64,000 nt of DNA from Alphaproteobacteria bacterium (GTDB lineage: Bacteria > Pseudomonadota > Alphaproteobacteria > SMXP01): contig JANQPV010000026.1 of NCBI GenBank assembly GCA_028285305.1, positions 62,001 to 126,000 on the forward strand, written 5' to 3'. Shown here one piece after another: positions 40,124 to 43,015 of this stretch (positions are counted from its first letter, which is position 1; each line of letters begins with the position of its first letter). Made by a program: the position numbers and the translations under genes. Under the pieces are notes generated by a model. The model was not told the origin of the DNA. It worked only from the letters and a program-made list of their open reading frames with translations, and ran no database searches.

Positions 40124-40274
40124 CTGCTCCCCCAAGACCCCTAGTCTGCGCCACGCAACCAATACGATTAACCATTAACAACGCGCTCGCACTTTCTGCA
40201 AGTTGAAATTGAGCTTGCGAGCAATCGGCGCCGTGCAGATCACCTTTCATTTACGCCTCTAACCCATTATATTA

Positions 40275-40627
40275 TGTGTGCCGGTTTGACCGGCTATGGC
40301 GATAAACGGACTCGTAATAAGCGGACCGGACCCGGGGGCGGTACCCGGCGCCTCCACCACAAGCCCAGCGGGCGTTGCGCAATAGAGAGCAAGCGCTACC
40401 ACGCTGGGTTTCTGTGGGGGCGAAATAGGATCGACGGACGTGTAAAGGTACTCCTTTCGCCCGGCATGGCACCACCGTTATCGGGCTGTTTCAATAGTTG
40501 CTAATGACAACTACGAAGGAGAATATGCTCTCGCTGCGTAATGCAGTGCGGGTTTTCTCAACCTAAAGCCCTAGCCCCACTTCAGGGCTAGGCGGGGTTC
40601 GGCGGCACCTGGCAACAGAAGCCGCCA
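40275..40627 (+). ncRNA. ssrA: Transfer-messenger RNA, circularly permuted two-piece form
   Basis: tmRNA, which rescues stalled ribosomes. The acceptor part comes first: hairpin GCCGGTTTGACCGGC, T arm CCGGG/CCCGG, then CGCCTCC (40349-40355) and encoded ACCA (40356-40359). The coding part starts at GGGGGCG (40416-40422), which pairs with CGCCTCC and puts a G:U third in the stem, the alanine identity pair. The tag reading frame 40500-40541 encodes ANDNYEGEYALAA then TAA. The 3' end is hairpin GGCGGC (40601-40606)/GCCGCC (40621-40626) followed by a T run. The intervening loop is removed on maturation in alphaproteobacteria. Exact mature ends uncertain. Confidence 0.93.
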
Positions 40628-40675
40628 TTTTTGTGTGTCCTTGATCACTCACTCACTTCGATCCATGAGTTTTCT

Positions 40676-41002
40676 ATGAAACCAAAAAAGTCTGACGACA
40701 TCTTTGTCGACCTGCCAGAGGGGGTCACACGGTCGCAAGTGGTGAACGTGGTGGAACGGGCCGCCAAGGCCGCCGGCCTGTACATTTCCCATATCGGCAG
40801 CTACTCCCGAAAAAAGTACCCCAACTCCGTGCACTGGCATTTCAAGCGCGACAAGGCGGAGCGCGGTCTCATTGATGCGACGTACTGGGATGCGAAATCA
40901 CTGCTGTGGCTGATGATCCGCCACCGTGAACCCGACTGGGTGAAAGAGACGGCGCCGAAACTGAAGCGGGCGCTGCAACAAGAACTCAAGACCCTCTCCT
41001 GA
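40676..41002 (+). CDS. Conserved-looking small protein, unknown function
   Basis: A 108-residue basic protein starting MKPKKSDDIFVDLPEGVTRS, with VVERAAKAAGLYISHIGSYS, SVHWHFKRDKAERGLIDATYW and LWLMIRHREPDW. The family is not known to me. It starts 19 nt before the selenoprotein-like gene, with AGAGG before that gene, so the two may be co-transcribed. A possible role with the selenoprotein is a guess. The frame opens earlier at 40631 within the tmRNA terminator, but ATG 40676 is the first credible start. Confidence 0.65.
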   Translation: MKPKKSDDIFVDLPEGVTRSQVVNVVERAAKAAGLYISHIGSYSRKKYPNSVHWHFKRDKAERGLIDATYWDAKSLLWLMIRHREPDWVKETAPKLKRALQQELKTLS

Positions 41003-41021: not shown

Positions 41022-41927
41022 ATGCGGGAATTCATCGACTATATTGAGCGCACGCGAGAGCAATATGACACGCTGGGGTATCCAACTTATCAATGGGTGC
41101 ACAACGAAGACGCGCCTCCGTTTGCGCCTCTGCGCAAACCGCTTTCCGAATCCACGGTGGCGCTCGTCGCCTCGGGCGGAATTTACCGATCGGGCCAAAT
41201 CGCTTTTCACTATAAGGACGATATCAGTTTCCGGATCATTGATTCGGCAACGCCAACGGACGAACTCCGCGTAACCCATTTCGCATACGATCTAACCGAT
41301 GCCCGCATCGATCCGAACGTAGTTTTTCCAATAGACACGCTGAAGGCAATGGTGCAGGAGGGGCGCATCGGACAACTCGCCGAACGCGCCTACACATTCA
41401 TGGGCGGCATTTACTCCGCCCGCAAAGTGCGCGACCGCTTGGCCCCTGCCCTTGCGGACCGGCTTATTGAAAACGAAGTGGACGTGGCGCTTATGGTTCC
41501 CGTCTGACCTGTGTGTCACCAATCCGTGGGATTGATCGCCAGAGAAGTCGAGAGCCGAGGCATTCCCACTCTCTCCATGTCGAGCGCCTATTCCATCACG
41601 GCAGCCGTGAACCCACCGCGGGCTGTCTATCTCGACTACCCGCTTGGACATACAGCAGGAAAGCCGAACGATCACGAAAACCAGCGGTCGATTATGCGCG
41701 ATACTTTGCGAGCGTTTGAGGACATTGACAGCCCGGGCGCCATTCGCACCCTAGAGTACGAGTGGTCCAGCGATCATTCGTGGAAAGACAGCGTGATGAG
41801 ACCAGACAAAAGCGGGGCCTCCAGCGACGCCCGCGTTGAACGCTACGCCACGCCTCAGTATCAAGACTCCGATGATGAAACACTTGTCGAAGAGGGATGC
41901 CCGACCTGCGTGTTTTTGGAAAACTAA
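41022..41927 (+). CDS. Probable selenoprotein, GrdB-like (glycine/betaine/sarcosine/proline reductase selenoprotein B family)
   Basis: One 301-residue gene with an in-frame TGA at 41505-41507 (residue 162). Before it, 161 residues end FMGGIYSARKV...ALMVPV; after it the same frame continues CCT GTG TGT (Pro-Val-Cys), then HQSVGLIAREVESRG and PPRAVYLDYPLGHTAG. So the TGA codes a UxxC redox motif (UPVC) in the family's known site. A 6-bp hairpin with G at the loop lies 18 nt beyond (41520-41534). The C-terminus has CPTC. The N-terminal part has LVASGGIYRSGQ and the GrdB-like fold. No SelB/SelA/SelC/SelD genes are in the window; substrate unknown. A sequencing error making Cys into TGA is the alternative. 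Confidence 0.8.
41505..41534 (+). promoter_or_regulatory. Candidate bSECIS element with Sec codon
   Basis: TGA (41505-41507), 12-nt spacer, then stem CAATCC (41520-41525), loop GTG, stem GGATTG (41529-41534). The loop starts 18 nt after the codon and its first base is G, both within the known bacterial SECIS rules. The stem is perfect and encodes conserved residues QSVGL at the same time. Function is inferred. Confidence 0.65.
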
Positions 41928-43015
41928 ACCGGCGGAATCAGCCCCCGCTCCCGGTACCCTTCAATCCACTTCTTGAGCATGTCCTCAGTATCCACACAGT
42001 CATGGAAGCCGAATTGACGGGCTTTGATGGTGCTGACGAGAACGGGAGGCGGCGCTGACGGCGCGCCGGACGCCATCGCCGCGTCGGCGAATTCCGCCGA
42101 CTCTCCTAAGAAGGCGCCGAGATCTCGCGGTGCGGCGAGCTGATACTTGTCCACTAAAGCCGCCCATTCCTCTTGCCGCGCCGGCAATGTCTCCGAAAGA
42201 CGCTGCGGGTTCGGTTCCCCCACCTCCATGTCAAAGGCCTCCGCGATCACCGGCCACACAGTCTCGAAGGCAAACACATCGCCGTTGGTAATGTTGAAAT
42301 GCTCGCCAGCACATTCTGGCGTCATCGCCGCCCATTCAAAGGCCTTGGCCAAAAGTTCCGTATCAACCGCTTCGAGGAGATAGGCCGGACCGCCGGGATA
42401 GGAAAACGCTCTGCCGGCCTCTTTTTCCAACGACGCATAGACACAGAGTGCGGAGAGGCAATTGAGATTGCCTTTCACCGCTTCCCCAAAAACGAACTGC
42501 GGACGAAGGATGGTCCAATTCCATCCCTTTCCGGCCTGCCTTTCTCGGATGTAGTCTTCCTGCAGCCAATAAAAGTTCGGATGATCGTGCCGCAGCCAGC
42601 GTTCTTTTGCGGGCACGGTCATCGGCGCGACGTGACCGCCATAGGCTTTGGTGCCCTGAAGGAGTGTGATGTGCTGCAGTTTGCCGGCAGCAGCTTCAAG
42701 GGGTTCAAACATATTGCGTAACATAGAGAGATTGGTCTGCATCTGGCCTTCGTCCCGCCAACCGCCGACCAGGTTACCAGGCAGCTCATGAAGCGCGGCA
42801 TAGATCACGTGGGTCACATCGCTCAGAGAACTGAAAGTCTCGCGGCAAGCCGCTTCATCCATCAGATCAACTGAAATGTGGGCAGCTGATGCCAGTCCCC
42901 GAGGTTCGCGTCGTGACACGGCGGTCACGGGCCAATCGGCAAGCCGCTCAAAGTGACGGGTGGCTTCATAGCCCACCAGGCCGCTCGCGCCGACCACGAG
43001 CATATGCTTCGCCAT
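41924..43015 (-). CDS. PRISE-type SDR (progesterone 5-beta-reductase/iridoid synthase-like)
   Basis: A 363-residue extended SDR. N-terminal cofactor motif MLVVGASGLVGYEATRHF (residues 6-23), then VSRREP, ITLLQGTKAYGGH, FYWLQEDY, a signature of the PRISE group where YxxxK-type residues are replaced, and WTILRPQFVFG. Members reduce enones with NADPH. Substrate unknown. Its stop codon TAG overlaps the selenoprotein gene's stop, sharing CTAA (convergent). Three bases separate it from the upstream methyltransferase gene on the same strand. Confidence 0.87.
   Translation of the reverse strand: MAKHMLVVGASGLVGYEATRHFERLADWPVTAVSRREPRGLASAAHISVDLMDEAACRETFSSLSDVTHVIYAALHELPGNLVGGWRDEGQMQTNLSMLRNMFEPLEAAAGKLQHITLLQGTKAYGGHVAPMTVPAKERWLRHDHPNFYWLQEDYIRERQAGKGWNWTILRPQFVFGEAVKGNLNCLSALCVYASLEKEAGRAFSYPGGPAYLLEAVDTELLAKAFEWAAMTPECAGEHFNITNGDVFAFETVWPVIAEAFDMEVGEPNPQRLSETLPARQEEWAALVDKYQLAAPRDLGAFLGESAEFADAAMASGAPSAPPPVLVSTIKARQFGFHDCVDTEDMLKKWIEGYRERGLIPPV

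Follow-up and report, generated by a model that had tools for sequence, protein, structure and literature searches.

The window, i.e., the whole 64,000-nucleotide stretch of alphaproteobacterial DNA analysed here, carries a gene whose reading frame is interrupted by a single TGA codon, and which lies between a tmRNA gene and a convergent gene. The features of this locus are as follows:

40241-40629: tmRNA gene of the alphaproteobacterial (permuted) type, directly upstream of the selenoprotein gene
40679-41002, forward strand: small ORF of 107 amino acids, its end 19 nt upstream of the selenoprotein gene
41022-41927, forward strand: predicted PrdB/GrdB-like selenoprotein gene, a read-through frame of 301 codons with stop TAA at 41925-41927
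41505-41507, forward strand: TGA almost certainly read as selenocysteine (Sec), judging from the homologue codons; codon 162, first residue of a UxxC motif (U-P-V-C)
41514-41516, forward strand: Cys165, presumed resolving cysteine of the UxxC from its conservation in relatives
41520-41534, forward strand: putative bSECIS apical hairpin, CAATCC (41520-41525), loop GTG and GGATTG (41529-41534), conserved with compensatory changes
41898-41909, forward strand: C-terminal CxxC (C293-P-T-C296), subfamily-specific among the relatives compared
41924-43015, reverse strand: convergent gene with a PRISE-like Rossmann domain, its end overlapping the selenoprotein gene by 4 nt

The interrupted frame and its homologues

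Plain ORF calling yields two short proteins here, as an earlier note on this DNA had anticipated: one of 161 amino acids at 41022-41507 and another, in phase with it, at 41508-41927. The ORF listing and the read-through translation both bear out the coordinates of that note and its statement that the TGA alone separates the two frames; the motif around it reads VPV-U-PVCHQSV. In a profile search of the split ORFs, the N-terminal half alone still matches PF07355, and the sole match of the second half, a weak one, is PrdB. Compared with eight orthologues, differences at the first, second and third codon positions amount to about 0.25, 0.2 and 0.6 on both sides of the TGA, i.e., third positions are the most divergent either side of it and the two parts are under similar coding constraint. 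Reading through the TGA corrects the annotation of a gene that a plain ORF caller otherwise splits in two.

Homologues were sought by scanning 84,980 species genomes, from which the best 80 loci (55-69% identity over full length) were retained. These are mostly gammaproteobacterial MAGs, as labelled in their records, with Acidobacteriota, Myxococcota, Chloroflexota, Actinomycetota and Binatota also among the labels. The earlier note had proposed looking for Cys or Sec at residue 162 of homologues, and the outcome is clear-cut: codon 162 is TGA in all of the best 80 and a Cys codon in none, and Cys is found in relatives without selA. Remoter alphaproteobacterial relatives carry either TGA or a Cys codon at this site (Cys in about a dozen relatives), and a paralogue in the same genome (L026, C22:157301-158104; 36% identical) has TGC at the aligned codon. 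Cys165 is present in 34/34 orthologues of alignment A1 and in 87% of the other relatives. The earlier note had put the TGA at the known Sec site of the family. Clostridial PrdB (L152), from a family whose selenoprotein nature is established (Kabisch 1999, as cited in PMC13188914), likewise carries TGA at this position of the alignment.

Two other readings of the interruption can be weighed against these data. If a Cys codon had recently turned into TGA, a pseudogene with two decaying halves would be left, and two short ORFs are indeed what a mechanical caller gives; such a history is nevertheless extremely improbable, with this codon being TGA in all of the best 80 homologues from several phyla, the downstream frame and its codon-position pattern intact and, as described below, sel genes present and the hairpin conserved. 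It is the conservation of the TGA in independent genomes that refutes it. Likewise, one wrong base would suffice in a single genome for TGC or TGT to be read as TGA by sequencing or assembly error, but the recurrence of TGA at the same codon in independently sequenced genomes, together with the finding of Cys forms in genomes lacking selA, leaves this explanation hardly credible. From such comparisons, both the pseudogene and the sequencing error are excluded for practical purposes.

A few relatives deserve separate mention. In a sub-branch formed by L031, L038 and L133, U-P-L-D replaces U-P-V-C, i.e., the resolving Cys has given way to Asp whilst Sec is kept. L127 and L128 were considered as double-Sec proteins and rejected, given that their second TGA closes the reading frame and is read here as a stop. 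Viral contigs were searched for relatives and none was found.

Selenium machinery and the hairpin after the UGA

The earlier note had made its reading depend on the presence of selA, selB, selD and tRNA-Sec in the genome (5.4 Mb, 95% complete), and all four were found within about 5 kb of each other, on another part of the window's own genome (contig C73):

L027 1107-7753 and 8016-8708 (C73:128000-138500): selenium cluster, comprising a CFYUT gene, a WUPYC gene, selC, Sec-selD, selA, selB and a second WUPYC gene

The matches are to selA (E 1.7e-147), selB (310.7 bits, against a cut-off of 242), selD (381.9 bits, with an in-frame TGA of its own in SAGUAGK) and tRNA-Sec (selC, 78.3 bits, anticodon UCA). 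Beside the sel genes, an AhpD-related CFYUT selenoprotein (NF041238) scores 422 bits over a cut-off of 175, and W-U-P-Y-C motifs occur in two Prx-like genes. The selenium genes of this alphaproteobacterium are confirmed as a compact cluster, and its genome has, counting the window gene, at least five genes for selenoproteins.

Across alphaproteobacterial genomes, selA is found in 34 of the 37 classed as having the TGA form and in 0 of the 11 with Cys forms only (Fisher p 1.6e-8, relatedness of the genomes not corrected for), the class of some genomes being a count of stops inside the match with the codon itself unread. The selA match is missing in three of the 37 TGA-form genomes (G315, G015 and G266); G015 is 77% complete, and G315 and G266 are reported to be 95-100% complete, yet gave no selA match.

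As to the hairpin, the earlier note had put it 18 nt downstream of the TGA, which is true of the start of the apical loop, whereas the stem begins at 12 nt. The geometry was otherwise correctly judged to lie within the bSECIS limits, which PMC13188914 gives as a stem of 4-16 bp, a loop of 3-9 nt starting 16-37 nt after the UGA, and a G as first or second base of the loop: the window has six perfect pairs, a GUG loop with G first, and 18 nt of spacing. Against the folding-energy limit in the same source (MFE at or below -7.5 kcal/mol), the 42 nt after the TGA reach -10.9 kcal/mol, within it, and the bare 6-bp hairpin -5.9, short of it. The folding energy of this 42-mer has p = 0.50 against synonymous shuffles, and 31% of orthologues fall below 0.05; taken alone, then, the window hairpin is unremarkable, and what makes it significant is its conservation across relatives. 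Since whole-segment folding energy is weak for single sequences, a stem-specific test was used.

All 81 orthologues can form such a hairpin, with 6 or more base pairs and a G as first or second base of the loop, whereas 300 synonymous shuffles give a mean of 22.8 and a maximum of 36 of the 81. Other Sec relatives have it in 25/30 cases (5.2 expected) and Cys relatives in 2/11 (1.6 expected); it is absent from the Cys paralogue L026. The paired Gln and Leu codons covary, CAA going with TTG in 8/8 sequences and CAG with CTG in 71/73, and between subfamilies a T-A pair (TCC/GGA) is replaced by A-T (ACC/AGT), so that both amino acids change and the pairing is kept. Over 67 distinct sequences, cells with changes on both sides number 40 as opposed to 9.2 in the shuffled set, and covariation is 0.328 as opposed to 0.103 when shuffled and at most 0.064 when the partner is slid. 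Columns 22-23, the G-U of the loop, do not vary in a 68-sequence alignment from which three Acidimicrobiia sequences are absent. The hairpin is conserved beyond coding need.

In the Acidimicrobiia orthologues L109, L111 and L118, the hairpin lies 4 nt further downstream and has a different stem, as if re-evolved.

UGA suppression being possible in principle, the codon might be read as another residue (e.g., Trp) or passed by plain read-through without selenium. This is very unlikely indeed, as the alternative residue in relatives is Cys and not Trp, the Sec machinery is complete with a tRNA-Sec of anticodon UCA, and the hairpin fits the bSECIS. The sel genes, the TGA in 80/80 best homologues and the conserved hairpin all support the proposal in the earlier note of a true selenoprotein gene, and on the strength of the sequence data the full-length product of 41022-41927 is almost certainly a selenoprotein, a member of the PrdB/GrdB (PF07355) superfamily.

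The C-terminal tail, a possible mechanism and the origin of the gene

The CxxC tail, of which the earlier note says nothing, is present in 80/81 orthologues, preceded by a conserved PQYQ...D segment, the exception being a Desulfosarcina MAG (L125). None of 12 Cys relatives has it, and among 30 other Sec relatives a downstream C..C occurs in a single one, a longer protein with the pair in a different place. An AlphaFold2 model built with 64 sequences is confident, at a mean pLDDT of 95.2, and predicts the tail as ordered (pLDDT 91-96 over residues 271-300). Neither by sequence nor by fold did the PDB yield a convincing relative, the best TM-scores being about 0.3 by query length.

In the mechanism that we propose, SelA and SelD would make Sec-tRNA-Sec on the selC RNA, and SelB would deliver it to the UGA at 41505-41507, guided by the hairpin at 41520-41534; incorporation in vivo is what we infer from these parts. 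The product would be a stand-alone thiol/selenol oxidoreductase with the Sec162-x-x-Cys165 pair as its active site, where Sec162 probably attacks the substrate and Cys165 would resolve the intermediate in a presumed redox cycle. Cys293-x-x-Cys296 may take electrons from a thioredoxin-type donor and then re-reduce the active site. In ribonucleotide reductase, C-terminal cysteines re-reduce the active site within the same chain. By analogy, the tail CxxC could be an intramolecular shuttle carrying electrons to the Sec active site, a tentative suggestion that we consider somewhat more likely to fail than to hold. With similar reserve, one may speculate that the tail docks at Sec throughout a distinct and widespread stand-alone PrdB-like subfamily, in which a new, possibly aerobic, reductive reaction would replace the chemistry of the pyruvoyl subunit of clostridial reductases. 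Either way, the conserved tail is a direct handle for testing function in a subfamily spread over several phyla.

In the tree, the window protein groups, with modest support, with gammaproteobacterial sequences, and among the main full-length matches no other alphaproteobacterial genome of the 385 sampled has one above 44% identity; together, these suggest that the gene may have been acquired by horizontal transfer. It lies directly downstream of the tmRNA gene, and islands commonly insert at genes of this kind. The small ORF at 40679-41002 has no Pfam or NCBIfam match and is not conserved beside the orthologues in the neighbourhood comparison, and a scan upstream of the selenoprotein gene found no sigma-70 promoter.

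Family assignment and comparison with known systems

The product scores above the gathering cut-off of the PF07355 GRDB superfamily (50.3 bits, cut-off 22) and marginally above that of TIGR01918, the glycine/betaine/sarcosine/D-proline reductase selenoprotein B subfamily (66.8 bits, cut-off 65.45). The best curated model is PrdB (TIGR04483), at 178 bits, below its equivalog cut-off of 300, whilst GrdB (TIGR01917) falls well below its own (60.5 bits, cut-off 602.2), with positions 219-421 of its 431 matched. "GrdB-like", as the earlier note called the gene, is a label in need of refinement: PrdB is nearer (178 against 60.5 bits) and the N-terminal half of GrdB is missing.

Could it act with a pyruvoyl partner, as a true subunit of D-proline reductase (PrdB) or of glycine reductase (GrdB)? 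Having PrdB as best curated model and UxxC at the aligned Sec site speaks for this, but the score stays short of the equivalog cut-off, no conserved partner gene lies alongside, and no PF09338 (PrdA/GrdE) gene was found in the host genome (95% complete) nor in eight alphaproteobacterial genomes with relatives, by a search that recovered the family three times in its control, a clostridial plasmid record. A role as reductase subunit is therefore very improbable; it would bear on function alone, and would not conflict with the gene encoding a selenoprotein. Gene neighbourhood comparison across about 120 loci revealed no conserved partner or operon. The commonest neighbour, enoyl-CoA-hydratase-like (named by eye), occurs at 20 loci, about 1.8 kb away and in most cases on the opposite strand, and was rejected as a partner because it looks like local synteny. 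Given the PrdB score below cut-off, the absence of PF09338 and the lack of a conserved neighbour, the product is best described, from its sequence, as a stand-alone PrdB-like selenoprotein rather than a proline or glycine reductase.

Compared to its known relatives, the window protein resembles clostridial PrdB in the position of Sec and in sequence, with about 34-38% identity over 71-81% of the protein; it differs from clostridial PrdB in being about 60 residues longer, with the CxxC tail, and in having no PrdA partner. With GrdB, GrdF and GrdH (protein B of glycine, sarcosine and betaine reductase) it shares a homologous C-terminal half with the UxxC, whereas it lacks their N-terminal 200 residues, scores 60-69 bits against cut-offs of 602-800, and has no GrdE. 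The paralogue L026 of the same genome is alike at the active site (CPVCHQSV), but has Cys (TGC) in place of Sec, and neither hairpin nor CxxC tail.

The closest parallel is with marine "PrdB" UxxC selenoproteins, described since 2005 (42 Sargasso Sea and 235 GOS sequences, according to excerpts of PMC1088965 and PMC2398784). According to the same excerpts, these share with the window protein the UxxC Sec, PF07355 (in the GOS table) and the existence of Cys homologues; their name implies proline reductase, which the missing PrdA-type gene here does not support. The relatives thus take their name from proline reductase, yet the partner subunit of that enzyme is missing from this host. A subfamily with a C-terminal CxxC is not named in those excerpts of the Sargasso Sea and GOS descriptions (PMC1088965, PMC2398784). 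Most likely, the window protein belongs to the marine PrdB set, to which it was matched by description. The selenoprotein family is one already known from marine bacteria, and the C-terminal CxxC pair is an extra feature.
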